From Apostichopus japonicus (Eukaryota > Echinodermata > Holothuroidea > Aspidochirotida > Stichopodidae): DNA of 64,000 bases. Position 1 is the first letter of the stretch. Every line of letters begins with the position of its first letter. The stretch lies in NCBI RefSeq assembly GCF_037975245.1, contig NC_092574.1, forward strand, positions 16,035,213 to 16,099,212, in the 5' to 3' direction. This document shows, one piece after another, positions 24,119 through 59,900 of the stretch. The position numbers were made by a program, and so were the translations under genes. The notes beneath the pieces were generated by a model. That model saw nothing but the letters and a program-made list of their open reading frames with translations. It made no database searches and was not told the DNA's origin.

Positions 24119-27100
24119 GTTCGATCTTCTACAGTCTTGTATTAATTGTTCGGAATGGCTCGAGTCATTATTAGCTCATTTTGTATGAAGAAATTAGTTA
24201 ATGACTGCTAATTAAATGACTGCCAAGTTTTTCACAATAAATTAATAAATCAGCTATGTAAATTTACTGATAATCATAATACATGAAAGTCATCTCCCCC
24301 CTCCCCTCCCCACTCCATCTTCCACTGACCACACTGACACCTACATAATACCCAACAGCATTCAAAGGTCACATCATCATGTGGTAGGTCAAGAGGGAGA
24401 TACAACTAAGAATCCTTCAGAGTGGGTCCTTCTGAAGACATCATCTGGGAGACAATTAAAACTATCCTAGATTCTGTGGAAAGAGGTCAAGGATCATTTT
24501 CATTCCATATATATCGATGAAAACAAGAAGAACAAGTATTTGGTTTATTGGTTCAATTAGGGCCATTTGAGGTTTTAAAGGTCAATGCACAATGAGAAGT
24601 GTTTTCCCCATGTATAACTATAATATATATATATGCATGTATCACATTGCATATGATATGCCACAATACTACAGTAACATGCCAACTGAACAAATACCAG
24701 TTTGTATCTAATTATTTAAATGTATACTCAAGTTAAAGATGTAAAAAAAACACAATTAAGGTTCCCACAAGTTTTAATAAAGTAATAAACTGTCTTATTC
24801 AAACTGTACATCTGGTTGGCTGAACAGTTAAATATATATCTCCTCGACACTTCTTCCACTTTATTTTAAGAACCCACTATTTATGTATTGGAGGAGGGAT
24901 CCCAAGAATACTGCTTTTGATCATTTTCATCAAACAAACAGTTCAGTTGAATGTTCTCTGCTTCTTTCTCTCTCCCCATTTAGGTAACTTGAGCAATTCC
25001 CAAAGTATAGATGGGAGAATAAAAGTAGCAGTCAAGGTTAGTTTTGTCAATTTCACAGTTATTAGAAAAATGTACGACCAACGTCCCCTTTCAGGCTTTC
25101 ACAGAAAATGTGTTCTTTCAGTTTGTGAAAATATATCAATCACAAGCCAATTTTTATTGTAGGAGGACTGCAAGAGTATGGGAGGGGACAAGGTAAATCA
25201 TATGGAAAAATTAAGATTCAGGATTTGTCAACTTTTCAAAACTTCTCTTAAATGTTTGAATAAATTATGAATGCTTCATATAGTAAATCTGCCTTATACT
25301 TGGATATTAGTATCGCATAGCACTAAAACGTTACCAAAAAATCGATATGAAGGTACTATCCTAAATAAACTAGCTTTGCTTTAAATATCACAAGAGCATG
25401 TTATGATTCACATCTACCTTCTTCCTAGGTTTTAAAATATCTGAATATGTGTAAATATCCCAGTCCAATCAACACCCACATCCAAGTGGTTGCTAAATTA
25501 GTGTAACCTACTGTACTGTGTGTTTCATCTCTCTGTACTGTGTCGGATGATATGAAGTACAGAACACCTAGTTCTTTATAACCAGTAATTCCTTGATCAG
25601 TTAATCTCTCTCTATTCAAACAAAATTTGTTCATTTTGTTCATACCTGACAGGTTCTTCACCCTGGCATCATGGAGTCGGTGGACCTTGACCTGACCATC
25701 ATGAAATGTGTTGCAAGATTCCTGACACTTTTCCCTGGTGTAGAATGGTTGAGCTTACCAGAAATTATTCTTGAATTTGAGCTGCTTATGAAAAAACAGG
25801 TACTGTGTACTGCCTTACATGGTTTAAACATTCTAAGTTGTAACTGTGACCCGCAAAATAGAAGGAAAAAAAGGAGTAGATTAATTCAATTCAAATAAGA
25901 TTACAAAAGTCACTCGTACATTTTCGCAGTGTTATGTTATAACGTTCGTTATAATGTTAAATTGAGAATCTGAGAGTTTCATTGGTCAAGGAAAATCAAC
26001 TCACACAACACTCTCACAGTAGCAGTAACATATATTTCAATATAAGACTTCTGTGACAGACCTTTGCGCTAGCAAGCAACAAGACCAGTTACCTTCTAAT
26101 TCAAATTTGGTTGAGCAGTAGAACATCATTTCTGTGGTGGATCAACTTGGTACAAGAAATTCGAATTTCTACCAATAATTAAGGTGGCAAGAATTTGACC
26201 GCACTTGTGGAAATTGAATGACCATGGTAAATTTAAACCTTTCAAGGAGGGCAAGATCAATGAATAATAGCTTCTATGCACAGTGACATACACCAGTGAG
26301 GGGGAAGCCGGGGTGGAGGAGGGGGATACAGTAGTTTAGTAACTTAATTATCAGGATCAGTCAAATATTTTTGCATTGATATTATCGAAAGTGATACTAT
26401 ATAGACATTTCATATTTCATCCACCATCCTTTGGTATAGTACTCAGTAGAGTAAGCATGCATGTAACATTATTCTTCAGCTCTGACAGTTTCAGTTTGAT
26501 TACCCTTGTGCCTAAATTCATTGAACAAAAACGTTGTTTCAAAACAGTTTGAGTTTGTTTAGACATATTGTGAGTTACTTTGGTTTTATTTGATCAAATG
26601 GGGAGATGCTTTAACATTTGTTGATGGTTTTGCTCTTCTAGATTGACTTGAAAATAGAAGCCTACAATCTGGATCTGTTCAATAAGCTCTTCTCCTCTGA
26701 CCCTACCATCAAGTTTCCTTCACCGATATGGCCACTGGTTCACTCAGAGGTTTTGGTGGAGACTTTTGAGGTATTTTATCCAATTTTGTTACGGTAAATT
26801 TGACGACAGTGAACATGACCCAAATTTGGAAAGTTGCTAGGTGCTGTCACAATCATGTTCACTATGTGATAGGCTATTAAAGGGATCATAGGAAAGAGAT
26901 TTAGAATGTTCCTAGTTGCTGTTACAAGGTTCACTATGTGGTAGGCTATTAAAGGTATAAGAAAGAGATTTAGAATGTTGCTAGGCACTGTCACAATATT
27001 CACTATGTGATAGGCTATTGAAGGGATCATAGGAAAGAGATTTAGAATGTTGCTAGGTGCTGTTACAATGTTCACTATGTGATAGGCTATTGAAGGGATA

Positions 27101-30100
27101 GGAAAGAGATTTAGAATGTTGCTAGGTGCTGTCACAATGTTCACTATGTGATAGGCTTTTAAATTAGGGATAGGAAAGAGATTTAGAATGTTGCTAGGTG
27201 CTGTCACAATGTTCAATATGTGATAGGCTATAAAAAGGGATAGGAAAGAGATTTAGAATGTTGCTAGGTGCTGTCACAATGTTCACTATGTGATAGGCTA
27301 TTAAAGGGATAGGAAAGTCTACAAGTTCTATCACTGAGCAAGTTCAATGAAAAACATTGGTCCACTTCTGATCTTGCTAGCTTTGTTTCATTGCTGAGAT
27401 ACTAAATATGAATGTATTCAGTTTTAGTTAGATAAGTACATTGTGCTGTAATGTGTGATTTCATATCATCAAAAAACATCTGAAACTGCCATTGTTTGTC
27501 ATCATTTTTCACTGATTTAAATGAGGACTCATACATAATTGAAATCACTATTTGATTGTGATGAAGTAACTTGATCACACATTACCAACGTAAAATAAAA
27601 TCCACACTCACACAATTTAATAATTATTTACCAATGTTATTTAGTAATTTTAACTTTTAAAGGAAATATAAGACATGGCAAAACAGATGTAGTTTTACCA
27701 CAATCACACAGCCCAACTGTCCACAATGTCCCATGTCGATCAGTACTCCCAGTCAGTACTCTGGGTCAGCAATCCCCGTCAGTACTCCCGGTGGGAACTC
27801 CCGGCAAGTACTCCTGGCCAGTGCTCCTGGTCAGTACCCCAGGTCAGTACTCGATCCGGTCAGCACTCGATCTGGTCAGCACTTGCTACGGTCAGAATTC
27901 TTGGTCAGAACTCCCAGTCAAAACTCCCAGTCAGAACTCCCAGTCAGTACCCCCGGTCAGAAGCCCGGTCAGAACTCCCGGTCAGTACTCCTGTCAAGTC
28001 ACACTCATGCAGCCTGCGTCTAGCTTAATGGTTTTGGTGAACGGTTATATTGGGACCACTACCAAATTTTTGATTCTGATCTACAGAGACTTAATATGGA
28101 AGGACAACATGGTTTGCTGGGTTGGCTATTCAAGTTTTATCTGGAGTAACTATAAACAATCCCAAATGTCTAGACTTTCCTTTAGTATGTGACCGATAGT
28201 TGACGAAAATGTAATGGCATTGAAATTGTAAGAATGAAGGAGAGTCTTCAATTTCTCAAAACTTAATCTTTATGCTGTGAAAAAAATCTAGAGTGATCTC
28301 TAACTTGGACCCATTGTAATCTGATTTGGAGCAAAATCATGAAACTTTGGACAAAATGGCAAGAAATTGGTTATTCAGTGCCACCCCCAAAAAAAGCCTG
28401 TCTACTAAATTTTGAATATGAAATTCAATTGTTATGATAAATATTCTCATTGCAGGAGGGTACTCCCATCAGTCATTTCACTCGTTGGAAAAGTTCATCC
28501 CCGAAATTATCACAATTGAAGAGACGTCTTGCAAAGCTGGGGATATCAGCTATTCTCAAAATGGTGAGTGAAATGTTTAGCTTTCACATTAATGAAAGCA
28601 GTTTGTTGAGACATTAATATGATAACTATCTTTGAGGAAAATATTATCTATACCAGAAGTGAAATTACTAAAAGGTCTATTGTTTGTAAATATATTGTCA
28701 ATTAAATAGGTGGAACTTCCACCAACTTGAGCAGGCATAGTAATTGCTGGAAAGAAGTTGTTGGAAAATACAGTATTCATAATATCAAATGATCCACTCA
28801 AGAGTGGGTCAATATTAAAATCACCCATTCTATAACCGTCTTTTTCACAGGACATTTATTTGATATAACACATACATAATCATTGAAAGAAGCTACTGAG
28901 CTATGTAGCGGTCTACGAGCAAGACCGACAAAGTAATCTTTCATAGTCAGTAGGTTCTATAAAAGTAAGGTCAATCCCCAAGTTGAAGAAGGAAATATCA
29001 CTCCTGTTCATGAAGGTATCCTTTTTGGAAATAAAAAGACAAATACTGCCCCCTTTTCTATTATCTCTATGATTCTCTACAAGTGTGTAATGCTCAAGTT
29101 CTATAATGGGGGAAATTTGGTCGCTAAACCATGTTTCGCTGAAGCTGATGATGGAGAATTCATGATTAAGGAGAGAAACAAAATCAGAAGTAGAATTAAA
29201 GTCTTTGTTCAAGCTCCGACTGTTGAAAAGAAAAAGGGAGAAGGAATTACAAACTAGGTCGTTGAATGAATTGATATCAAGATAAGTGTCAACAGACGCA
29301 ATTTGTGTTGTCTAAATGTAGGCCAATTGAATCAAAACTTTAAAGCCTTGGGCATCAAATCAAGTATTGTAACAACATGGACTACATATTAGGCAACGCC
29401 TTCTTAAAGTAACTGAAACTCCTTCCACAATAGGAGACAGACAATTTTGTCTACCAAAGAAGATACAGTTCTATAACCTACTTTTTTTTTTCCTTTCTCT
29501 TCTGTTCACCCATTTTCCCCTGACACCATTTTGGATTGCAGGTTTTCATAAACAACTTTGTACATGCTGATCTCCATCCAGGAAACATCATCGTCCAGTA
29601 CGAATCTGACCACGACAAGACGGACCCGGGAGAATCCAATTGTCTGACGGAAGAAGGTCAAGATCTGAATTTAGATCAGGTCCGGTTGGTGTTCTTAGAC
29701 GCTGGAATTATTGCATCGCTAAGTGAAAGAGATTTAGAGAATCTACAGAAAGTCTTTACGGCAATAGTGACCAACAGGGTGAGTTGTATTATTCATGTTT
29801 GCCAGACGGCATCATTTAAGTTGATGTATTTGATATTTCAAAAAAGGATAACTGTTAAGTATTCTTTATTCAATGGTATGGATACAACCTTTACACGGGT
29901 GATTTTTGGTGTATAAATTGGACACAAACCCAACCATCGTCTTTACCTTAAGCGAGCTGTTCGATTTTGTAATTCTATGATGTCATAGTGCCACCACAAT
30001 CTAAAGCCTGTTACTTTTCTGTTTGATTTTGCTTTTCATATTTTCAAATTAGAATGTTAACAGTGCTATTAAAAGCACTATGAGACAGCAAACGGTTAAA

Positions 30101-53937: not shown

Positions 53938-56900
53938 CTTGGGTACAAATCAGAACATAGTAACAAGATTAGACAGGAAGTTTCAAACAAAAGTGAGGAG
54001 TCATGGGAAGGAGTGGGATTGTTTGCCCAGTTATTGAGTTCCAAATATTTGGAGAATGCTTAATCTTTGTCAACACTTACATTTTGAAACATTTCTTATC
54101 TTAGAATCTATTGACAAAGTTTGAGCAGGTACCATTGAACGTGTCAAAGGTAAAAAAAATTCCTATGGAACAAATTTTCCATACAAGGCTCCTGGTGACA
54201 CATTTGAATTCTAATATAATAAAGTTCTTATAGTATGAGTACAACAGCCTGAGCAACAGTACAATATCTCTTGGTATGAGTACAAGGCTCTAAGCTTGAG
54301 TATGTAACTGTGTACCTTTCTTTACTAGATTACCAATATGTTGAGTGTATGAGTACAAACCCACTAGGATGAGTACAAGTTCTGGTAACTATGACTGAGA
54401 TTACCAGAAAGAGTACAAACTCACTGCAACTCTTGATAGATGTGACAGAGAAAATATCCACCAGACTTTGATGAAAGTTAATAAATCATCTCAGTGGACA
54501 GTTAAACTATTTTTGAGGGATTTCCTCATAATCACATTTAAAATGGCGATAGGGGTGGCATGCCTTTGCACAGTCAGTGAACATATGCCACCATTTACAT
54601 TGGGTTGCTTCATATAATACTCTTAGGCCTTCCCTAACCGAGCATCTCACAAATGGTACATGAAATCTGTTTGAAATTTCATCTTAGCTGACTAAACGAT
54701 AGTTTTCATAACTCAATGTGAGACTGTTTTTGCATCTTTTTGTGTAATCTTTTAAGAAAATGAAAGAAAAAAACTTCACCTGCTCTAAATGATCATAGAA
54801 TGTTGCTACACACTGTCTTGTGCCAGCATTCCATACTTTGACCGTTTTATCAGCCGAACTGGAAGAAATGAAAAGTAATGAAACAATAAACAAAAAAGAG
54901 AAAAAAAAAAAGAGAAACTAGGAAATTAAAGAGACACAGACATATCACAAAAGAAGAAACATTTAGTTACAGATAGGTTATTTATGTTTTTAACATACGA
55001 CTGTACTTGCAAAGAGAGGCATAAAAAATTGTAGCTTTGGAAACAAGTGGCCATGTACATTGAGGTGGAAGCAGAGAGAGTTGGGCTCAGGGCTCAAATT
55101 TTCACCACTTCTCACAGGAAAAAGGGTAAATCCCATTTCCATTCATTCCCAAGTGAAAATATTACCAGACTCTAAACTATTTTTATGAAAAGACATTGAT
55201 ATTTTTAAGAAAATACTGACCTTGAAACAAAATGTGTGTTGTCCGGACAGAAATGGACGCTATGCACCCAAGATCCGTGACCTGATAATGTTCCAGCCAG
55301 ATTTGCATGTTGTCTTAATAAAATAAAAATAAAATAAGAATAATTAAAAAAAAACATGTTTGTTACTACATCCTTCAATAGTAGCCATAAATGTGTGCAC
55401 AATAATACATAACTTCCCCAGTTGTAGGTCAAAGTAGATTCCTTCAATCCTGTCTTTCAGTCTTACAGAACCAAACTGAGAATCTGGCGACCAAGAGACT
55501 CCTTCCGTCTTAATCGACAATTGTTTCCACAGATTTATCATTTGAAATAAAAGTTTACCTTGTGCATTTATAATTTGACCAGAGATGCAAACTGAAGTGA
55601 ATTTCTATGTACAAAGTCAAAAAGAGTAAAAACTGAATAGGTTGCAGACGGACAAAAAACCAATCAGATATTGTCAGCAGAAATGTATACACTTTGTACA
55701 TCTATACATTACTCGATTGTCTCCTTCCCAACATACACCAAGAATATACAAAACTGACTTCAATGTAGACAGCCTTTTCCATTTAAACTTAAGTAAAGTG
55801 ACCATCACTTCTTGTTTGAAAAATTTAACTGTCTCTAAGAAAATAATATCGCACATGATGCATGAAACCTTGCAATTTTTTTTACTATTTATGGAACCCT
55901 AAAAGTATTTGCCATAAGAATATGAAATTGTGCATTTCCCACATTATGCAATATTCATCAATGGTCAAGCAACTTTATCAAAAGTAACCCTTGATTTGAA
56001 ATCACTGTTGTATTCAATCGTTCAAGTTTTTAAGCAGCATAGGTATATTTAAAGCAAAAATTTTAAAGACTTACACATCATACACTTTAATGTGTCCATC
56101 ATCTGAGGCTGTAGCCAGAAGTTGAGAGTCAGGAGAAAAGCAGAGGGACCTGATTGGCATAGCGTGACCTAGAGAGAGAAGATGCCATTTAGGTTATTAC
56201 TATCATCTACACACTAAGGGACCTGATTGGCATAGCATGACCTAGAGAGAGAAGATGCCATTCAGGTTAATACTATTATCTACACACTAAGGGACCTGAT
56301 TGGCATAGTGTGACCTAGAGAGAGAATATGCCATTCAGGTTATTACTATTATCTACACACTGAGGGACCTGATTGGCATAGCATGACCTAGAGAGAGAAG
56401 ATGCCATTCAGGTCATTACTATCATATACATACTGAGGGACCTGATTGGCATAGCGTGACCTAGAGAGAGAAGATGCCATTCAGGTCATTACTATCATCT
56501 ACACACTGAGGGACCTGATTGGCATAGCGTGACCTAGAGAGAGAAGATGCCATTCAGGTTATTACTATTATCTACACACTAAGGGACCTGATTGGCATAG
56601 TGTAACCTAGAGAGAGAAGATGCCATTCAGGTTATTACTATTATCTACACACTAAGGGACCTGATTGGCATAGTGTAACCTAGACAGAAGATGCCATTCA
56701 GGTCATTACTATCATATACATACTGAGGGACCTGATTGGCATAGCGTGACCTAGAGAGAGAAGATGCCATTCAGGTCATTACTATCATCTACACACTGAG
56801 GGACCTGATTGGCATAGCATGACCTAGAGAGAGAAGATGCCATTCAGGTCATTACTATCATATACATACTGAGGGACCTGATTGGCATAGCGTGACCTAG

Positions 56901-59900
56901 AGAGAGAAGATGCCATTCAGGTCATTACTATCATCTACACACTGAGGGACCTGATTGGCATAGCATGACCTAGAGAGAGAAGATGCCATTCAGGTTATTA
57001 CTATTATCTACACACTAAGGGACCTGATTGGCATAGTGTAACCTAGAGAGAGAAGATGCCATTCAGGTCATTACTATCATATACATACTGAGGGACCTGA
57101 TTGGCATAGCGTGACCTAGAGAGAGAAGATGCCATTCAGGTCATTACTATCATCTACACACTGAGGGACCCGATTGGCATAGCATGACCTAGAGAGAGAA
57201 GATGCCATTCAGGTTATTACTATTATCTACACACTAAGGGACCTGATTGGCATAGTGTAACCTAGACAGAAGATGCCATTCAGGTCATTACTATCATCTA
57301 CATACTGAGGGACCTGATTGGCATAGCGTGACCTAGAGAGAGAAGATGCCATTCAGGTCATTACTATCATCTACACACTGAGGGACCTGATTGGCATAGT
57401 GTAACCTAGAGAGAGAAGATGCCATTCAGGTCATTACTATCATCTACACACTGAGGGACCTGATTGGCATAGCATGACCTAGAGAGAGAAGATGCCATTC
57501 AGGTTATTACTATTATCTACACACTAAGGGACCTGATTGGCATAGTGTAACCTAGAGAGAGAAGATGCCATTCAGGTCATTACTATCATATACATACTGA
57601 GGGACCTGATTGGCATAGCGTGACCTAGAGAGAGAAGATGCCATTCAGGTCATTACTATCATCTACACACTGAGGGACCTGATTGGCATAGCGTGACCTA
57701 GAGAGAAGATGCCATTCAGGTCATTGCTATCATATACACAATAATACTTTTTGCAACTTGATGTTTCTGGTCATTTCATAACTTTCTGGAGTTTAATTTG
57801 CAACCACTTTGTGTCCCTGTTAAACGTGCTCACACTACCCCAACTGAAGGCGACGTGACTCAACTTGACTTTTGTGACATAGCTTTCAATAGTCATGAGA
57901 AGCCAGGGTCTTATAATTGACTGACTGATGAGTGAATACATGGACCGTTTTCTGTCAACAACCATTGCTTGGTTAGGTCACATACAAACTTTCCTTTCTT
58001 AGAAGAATCGACTTTTGTGACCTAGTTTTCAATAGTCCTGAACAGCCAGAGTCTTACAAATGACCTCCTCACACTGAACAGATGACTAGCCAATACGAGG
58101 ACCATTTGCTGTCAATAACCATTGCTCTTCTATGTCACATACAAAATATACTTTCATCTGATTGGCTACATATGTTAAAGCTTGGCGGTTTTCGCCGTGG
58201 ACCACCGCACACCGCCAACTGCAAAATGGGAGAAATGTTGAACTTCCCTTACTGACACTGATGCGACTAAACACTGCTAAATTCTTGATCAGTCATAGTC
58301 TTAAGCATGCAAATTCCAGTGGGCAGTGCACTCTGTGCACATTCAGTTTTACACTGTGGATCAGTTGAACATTGTCCAAAATACAGTGAATTGCCATTTA
58401 ATGACAAAAATAACAAGGCAAGGCTAAAATTTGTATAACGTAAAGGATACAGTTCATTACAGAGTGTTTAAAACTTTACCATACATATTTAAAATTCAAC
58501 ATGTTTTACCTTCCAAAGTGTGAAGGAGCTTTCCAGTCTGTAGATCAAAAATATTCACAATTCCATCAATGGCTCCGCTCGCTATGAACTTTGTATCTGG
58601 GCTCTGTGGGGTTAACGAAAGACAAGATCTCAATATTCTCTAAAGATATATATGTTTCTTTCTTTCTTTTTGTTAAACCTACCCGGTCATTAAAGCTGTA
58701 CAGTATGTCTTTTTCTATCCACAACAAAATGCACACATGACTACCCATAAAATGATGTAATACTTGATATCAAAGTAGACGTGGACATACAGATGTAGAA
58801 AAACCACTAGTATACAAGGAAACACATACAAGTAATGGAAAAGAACAATGAAAAGTAACAGTAACTACACCCTCTAAGTTCTAAGTAGTTTCGATATTAA
58901 TGGACTATTTATTAGAATGAACTTACATATGCTATACTAAGAGTGAACTTTCCCCTGGTATCCATAGATGACTCCTTCTTGCCATCATCCACCTTAAAGA
59001 GATTGATTTTACCACTATGACTGCCAGACGCCAGAAACTTCCCATCAGGAGAAAAGGTCAACGTCCAAGCATCAACTGCAAATAAAAAAACATAGAAGCT
59101 GTGACAAATCAATTCAGATTATGCTACAACAGCTGGGTTATCAATCGCAGTAACTGCATAGATATTTGAATTTGAACACGACAACATACATTAAAGGGGA
59201 AAAAAGGTGGGGGGGGGGTGGAGGAGGAGAAAGGTAACAAAAGGAATGGAAATCATAAAAAAATACAGGATTGCTACCTACAAATTATTCATTACATTAT
59301 TTATCACATTTGTGACTCTAAGATATATAGAACAAGGAATAACACAACCCTGTCAATTTTCATAGAAGTTAATAGCTAAATCCTGCCTAAATATTAAATA
59401 AAGCAGCGATGATATGATGCGAGCTGAAATGGTAATATTGAAAGTCTTTGTACATTTCTATGGATGGATCATTTTTCTATATGGAAGAACTATTGAGATT
59501 TAGACATTATCTTTGATATTTTCATTTTTCAACTCAAAACAAGGAAATTGAAAGCAATTTTCACGATCCACTGCAAACTTTATTCAACAAGGAAACAAAC
59601 AAACAACTAGCATATTATATCTACATAGACTACATGCAATGACTACAATGCTGGATCCAATTTGTAAATGCAACTGAAATTCCCCTTGAACTAGACACTG
59701 GCCACGTATGAGAAACTGAAAGCATGTACATTAGTACTTTGTAGTCTCTAACGAGACTCAAATTTCCATTTGAACAAACAAGTAACATAAAGCCTTCGTA
59801 GAGGTCCATTGAAACCAAGGATAAAATATGGAATAAGTTTGGCCTCCAAGTCCAATACTACAAAACCATACCTGAAGACAAATACCTGTCATTCAGCTTT

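Follow-up and report, generated by a model that had tools for sequence, protein, structure and literature searches.

Minisatellites that span the boundary between an intron and an exon go by the name 'mirage', coined in amphioxus (PMC3087553). The mirage reported there in the globin gene BflGb6 repeats in tandem the 3′ end of an intron together with the 5′ part of the next exon, with AG/GT in many of its units and with ends that escape homogenisation (PMC3087553). An array of the same build lies in an intron of the SKI8 gene of the sea cucumber Apostichopus japonicus, within the 64,000-nucleotide stretch analysed here (contig NC_092574.1, positions 16,035,213 to 16,099,212; hereafter the window, in whose numbering all coordinates are given). 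The features checked in its sequence are those of a mirage minisatellite, and the array belongs to a kind already known; the preliminary description of the locus was drawn up unaware that mirages are a described class. It is striking but not unprecedented: a long mirage minisatellite that is probably tolerated.

The published relatives set the scale. Units of the BflGb6 mirage measure 150-160 bp and number 6 and 3 in two haplotypes (PMC3087553), whereas SKI8 has 22 units of 73 bp; the host there is a globin gene of a cephalochordate and here a SKI8 gene of an echinoderm. Reverse transcription PCR suggests regular splicing of BflGb6 (PMC3087553), while the SKI8 array is known here from DNA alone. 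The amphioxus Adh3 mirages, as related in PMC3087553, are likewise boundary-spanning minisatellites, with units of 10-72 bp, and show length and somatic instability, where the SKI8 array is seen in one haplotype. Lancelet PGBD5 has 60- and 108-bp repeats across splice sites, which differ from the SKI8 array in being imperfect, the 108-bp one a triplication, and troponin C is added alongside PGBD5 to the lancelet examples (PMC3902484). Published mirages reportedly leave regular splicing undisturbed (PMC3087553, PMC3902484). No mirage outside lancelets, echinoderms included, was found in the open-access literature searched, and mirages would with SKI8 extend from lancelets to echinoderms; because the literature searched was open access only, 'first mirage in an echinoderm' is no more than a weak claim.

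More distant likenesses concern the origin of introns. Human internal tandem repeats, like the SKI8 array, can lie at an exon-intron boundary within a gene, but those described are in recent paralogs and reportedly form novel introns (PMC2812944), unlike the array in SKI8. The potato RdRp gene also carries a tandem duplication, discussed together with AGGT as a case of intron gain (PMC4974935), whereas in SKI8 an existing intron has been made larger and no new one is seen.

The array and its host gene

Tandem Repeats Finder (TRF) places a tandem array at 56143-57740, with a period of 73, 22.0 copies, 92% matches and a score of 2734. Set in register by their acceptors on the minus strand, the units show 22 sites of the form TAG/GTYAY (the slash marks the junction), the first exon bases running from 57697 to 56168; neighbouring acceptors are 73 nt apart in 19 of 21 intervals and 71 nt apart in two, where the pyrimidine tract is shorter by two bases. 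Each unit is made of 47 intron nucleotides (45 in three copies), ending with the pyrimidine tract and TAG, and of the first 26 nt of the SKI8 exon. The unit spans the boundary in all 22 copies, and polypyrimidine tract and TAG/GT are found in every one of them. At the 27th base after the acceptor all 21 upstream copies, called decoys below, have A where the real exon has T, and the full exon, 56168-56075, is reached from the last (22nd) copy only. A 73-bp unit with 21 of its 22 copies upstream of the true exon, 26 coding bases in each and a single acceptor leading to the full exon had been claimed from a first look at the sequence, and each of these points holds. The 22-fold array of near-copy acceptors in the SKI8 intron is real.

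The 21 decoy units, of 71 or 73 nt, occupy 56216..57742 on the minus strand. Their first exon-like bases are, for decoys 1-7, 57697, 57624, 57551, 57478, 57405, 57332 and 57261; for decoys 8-14, 57188, 57115, 57042, 56969, 56896, 56823 and 56750; and for decoys 15-21, 56679, 56606, 56533, 56460, 56387, 56314 and 56241. The 22nd unit (56143..56215, minus strand) holds the presumed true acceptor, between 47 intron nucleotides and the 26 nt with which the real exon begins.

The SKI8 protein is a member of the SKI and PAF1 complexes. The gene is read from the minus strand, starting at about 62.96 kb of the window and ending at 53.85 kb, and the exons located do not include the first coding one. 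Joined translations of nine exons match the human SKI8 chain 6gmh_W over 296/296 query residues (E = 5.9e-152), a similarity that identifies the host gene as SKI8 (WDR61) and bears out the name first given to it. The exon upstream of the array (58510..58603, minus strand) ends in ...HTLEG and has the donor GGAAG/GTAAAA; the donor had been put at 58510 and does stand at that junction, but 58510 is the last exon base and the first intron base is 58509. The intron, 2341 nt long (56169..58509, minus strand), carries the array in its 3′ part and is followed by an exon of 94 nt (56075..56168, minus strand) that ends in IKVYDV, with the donor GATGT/GTAAGT and 56074 as first intron base. A search of the genome for a spliced SKI8 retrocopy gave 8 matches at E <= 1e-10 and no retrocopy was seen among them: seven are exons of the SKI8 gene itself and one is a WD-repeat match of 35% identity on contig C20. 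In the same intron, upstream of the array, two look-alike stretches were noticed by eye in the window at 57900-58160 (minus strand), both with GTATGTGAC..., AGCAATGGTT and TTGACAG; they are perhaps an older duplication.

The units are a mosaic. Along the gene the 22 copies read ABCDEBFGBCDBHBIJKBHLMN, a series of 14 distinct types in which the blocks BCD and BH each occur twice; ten of the units are unique in sequence. Private changes, each confined to a single copy, amount to six single-base variants over about 1600 bases, and five of the six sit in copies 1, 20, 21 and 22; with the ends set symmetrically as copies 1, 2, 21 and 22 the count is four of six (binomial P 0.012). This clustering at the ends resembles the end-exclusion of the amphioxus globin mirage. 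Mean identity to the other copies is 0.894 for copy 15, 0.900 for copy 7, 0.903 for copy 1 and 0.939 for copy 22, so that not every end copy ranks lowest; a deletion is shared by copies 7 and 15. Mosaic and private variants fit block duplication with a homogenised interior, as is usual for minisatellites. That all 21 decoys have kept their acceptor was weighed as a possible sign of selection, but this was rejected, since with six private variants in about 1600 bases the loss of an AG is hardly expected.

That the array might be an artefact of assembly is barely credible. Tandem arrays are prone to wrong sizing, but 14 unit types in mosaic order speak against such an error, as does the length of the array, 1.6 kb, far below that of the HiFi reads (mean 14.7 kb, about 64x) from which the A. 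japonicus assembly of PMC10344927 was reported to be built, if that is the assembly used here. When 218 bases of the array were searched as DNA against the 671.58-Mb genome, with the best candidates only being scored, 10 matches came back, all within this array; no other locus with the array unit was returned, though weak copies are possible. Minisatellites as such are common in this genome, with five arrays of period >=30 and >=4 copies reported by TRF in a background sample of 18 ten-kb pieces (180 kb) taken at round coordinates.

Probable choice of the last acceptor

How the spliceosome would deal with such a run of acceptors is a matter of inference, and the explanation judged likely is that the array is a tolerated mirage minisatellite whose last copy is chosen mainly by exon definition. 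A short stretch across the 3′ splice junction of the SKI8 intron would have undergone tandem duplication, after which the copies spread and became homogenised as minisatellites do; because this always took place on the intron side, the coding sequence of the real exon was left intact. The upstream exon would normally be joined to the last copy, because only from there does an uninterrupted coding sequence lead to a GTAAGT donor 94 nt downstream. Poor donors and stops follow the decoys, and stray use of a decoy would probably give substrates of nonsense-mediated decay (NMD), or a normal mRNA if AG/GT were spliced again. A second and weaker component may be that pairing of the decoy branch region with exon bases lowers decoy use. 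Three options had been offered for the array, namely a tolerated accident, a length-dependent regulator of SKI8 level and a test of how the spliceosome picks among identical sites; the first of these is the best supported, while the second found no support, though it retains some small probability. As to the third, the array amounts to a natural experiment on competing acceptors, in which a single gene presents 22 near-identical sites. The unit variants, ten of the 22 being unique, would help RNA reads to show which copies are used or read through, and such reads on SKI8 could settle how an acceptor is picked among near-identical ones.

Donor strength, scored with a donor matrix that was also applied to seven SKI8 donors, is consistent with exon definition. 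The best GT within the array scores -1.34 and the donor of the true exon 1.59; between the upstream donor and a point near the end of the exon there are 196 GTs, of which the upstream donor alone reaches 2. In long introns the splice sites closest to each other across an exon are reported to be favoured (PMC9225289), and a regime of exon definition is plausible here because the introns on both sides of the exon at 56168-56075 are long, 2341 nt and 761 nt. Several points weigh on the other side. Competing acceptors in long-intron genes are reported to show a reduced upstream preference and no clear downstream one (PMC9225289), and exon definition alone may for this reason be too little to keep 21 upstream copies silent. 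Taken with the true exon's donor, the decoys closest to it would make exons of 167, 240 and 313 nt, which are ordinary lengths. That donor is, moreover, the weakest of the seven SKI8 donors scored (1.59 versus 3.17-4.79), because a T precedes GTAAGT.

Read in the frame of the upstream exon, all 21 decoys run into a stop after 11 to 17 residues. The stop had been given as AGT GTG TAG; every decoy does reach a stop, but that exact string is present in 15 of the 21, with AGT ATG TAG in one and a TGA six codons further on in five. These stops precede three later exon junctions (F-G, G-H and H-I), and NMD is the probable fate of transcripts in which a decoy is used with read-through. From here it is a short step to a regulator, in which array length would determine how large a fraction of SKI8 transcripts NMD removes: all 21 decoys stop upstream of the three later junctions, and the length of a minisatellite is expected to vary. 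A young homogenised array with six private variants would, however, likewise keep all its decoy sites, and regulation by length is considered quite improbable.

The decoys have a further property that the preliminary description did not see, any more than it saw that AG/GT could regenerate a weak donor or that pairing between branch region and exon bases can be more stable in the decoys than in the true copy. In all 21 a segment of 27 nt, open in frame, is followed by GT. Each could on paper be an optional in-frame microexon ending A/GTRTGT, so that the WD-repeat region would gain nine residues (SHAMPIRSL-like) with each copy included, and the open segment with GT behind it in every decoy is what such use would call for. 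Yet the scores of these donors, -1.3 to -2.1, lie below those of all seven SKI8 donors scored (1.6 to 4.8), and 18 to 25% of the 3844 GTs on the minus strand of the window score as well; introns between neighbouring units would be just 46 nt. Insertion in a WD blade of a beta-propeller is likely to be harmful to folding, which also counts against microexons, and their use is very improbable.

Human UBC offers a different precedent, for there, as in SKI8, dual-specific AG/GT sites stand in tandem one unit apart (PMC10809524). The UBC units are coding and the sites are reported to be used, whereas the SKI8 decoys are intronic and 73 nt is not a multiple of 3; the same report puts at 792 the number of human introns that lie within tandem repeats (PMC10809524). 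By analogy, a decoy used as acceptor in SKI8 would regenerate AAG/GTCACG or similar and could be spliced on to a later copy, and wrong choices would then correct themselves because AG/GT can be spliced again. AG/GT in 22 of 22 units and the actual use of such an array in UBC (PMC10809524) argue for this recursive rescue; the regenerated donors, though, are weak, at -0.5 to -0.9, with positions +3 and +5 unfavourable, and rescue of this sort is thought unlikely.

An inverted repeat across the acceptor

An inverted repeat that can pair the branch region with the first exon bases is a new observation here. Its intron arm in the true copy is AACCTAAATGGCAT (56182..56195, minus strand) and in the decoys GACCTGAATGGCAT (14 copies) or AACCTGAATGGCAT (7 copies); its exon arm, ATGCCAATCAGGTC, is coding and in the true copy lies at 56147..56160 (minus strand). 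Each decoy has RACCTGAATGGCAT before the pyrimidine tract and ATGCCAATCAGGTC in the exon part, with one base changed in copy 8, and where R is G, as in 14 of the 21 decoys, the arms are complementary at 13 of 14 positions. Between the arms lie the pyrimidine tract and AG, and within the first arm, judged by eye, the likely branch region. The true copy differs at 56190 (-22) by a private G-to-A that none of the 21 other copies has; the A is probably derived, having come after the array arose, because G stands in all the others, the far end copy included.

From this follows an alternative to exon definition as the main determinant, in which the decoys mask themselves: their branch regions would be hidden in stems with the exon bases just past an acceptor, either that of the copy itself or that of a neighbour, and G-to-A at 56190 would expose the true one. 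Several model results lean towards it. The 13/14 repeat of decoy 2 is reached by one in 1000 dinucleotide shuffles of a 100-nt stretch. Folded as isolated 61-nt hairpins, all 21 decoys give -14.9 to -19.1 kcal/mol against -9.6 for the true copy, whose lower stability goes back to the single G-to-A, and seven other SKI8 acceptors examined fold at only -1.8 to -11.4 kcal/mol. In five of five folding regimes (four local ones and a global one of the whole intron, with the branch region averaged over -31 to -20) no copy has a more open branch region than the true one (0.60-0.80; decoy maximum 0.48). Placing the decoy base in the true copy in silico closes its branch region from 0.60 to 0.36, and the reverse change opens that of decoy 11 from 0.37 to 0.51.

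Other results tell against masking. When just the last 150 nt transcribed are folded, with the branch region averaged over -31 to -22, the true copy at 0.35 falls within the decoys (0.22-0.45). In the same folding the mean pair probability of the own-copy stem is at most 0.02 in 20 of the 22 copies, the others being copies 1 and 2 at 0.34 and 0.82; the arms thus find most of their pairing elsewhere, presumably in neighbouring copies. In openness of the polypyrimidine tract the true copy has no advantage, ranking 19-20 of 22 in the four local regimes, and whole-unit fold energy departs only modestly from shuffles (for three decoys z is -1.1 to -2.2, for the true copy -0.2). The repeat itself is not out of the ordinary everywhere: the true copy's own 11/14 match is equalled by 31 of 1000 shuffles, another SKI8 acceptor has a 12/14 repeat, and of 1000 YAG sites drawn at random from the window, 85 match or exceed the weakest decoy in folding strength. 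The proposal also hangs on one base, in a copy at the end of the array, where private changes gather regardless; among 99 intronic substitutions that were scored, 9 cost the hairpin as much stability, or 9 of 135 if those outside the segment are counted as having no effect. Masking of the decoys by structure is speculation, and self-masking as the explanation of site choice is rather doubtful. The strongest form, in which RNA structure would tell the spliceosome which of the 22 acceptors to take, with 21 decoys closed and the true one opened by a single G-to-A, is held to be a shade more doubtful still; that structure makes some real contribution to the choice is given a small, though not negligible, chance. 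Selection of the last copy mainly by exon definition is the reading retained.

Other repeats

TRF finds a second minisatellite in the window, at 26824-27317, with seven copies of a unit of about 70 bp. It begins about 50 bp past an apparent exon end near 26770, and was considered as a further mirage but rejected, as its unit, compared by eye, is without bases of the neighbouring exon. A degenerate 13-bp tandem repeat (TCAGTACTCCCGG) follows at 27740-27991 of the window, with 18.8 copies by TRF. Elsewhere in the genome, COX1 of the mitochondrial contig has AAA at conserved asparagine positions and ATA at conserved isoleucine positions, in keeping with the mitochondrial code of echinoderms. A small contig (G000:C29, 14745-31219) carries pieces of COX1, one part of which is matched twice, and these may represent a mitochondrial concatemer or a nuclear copy.

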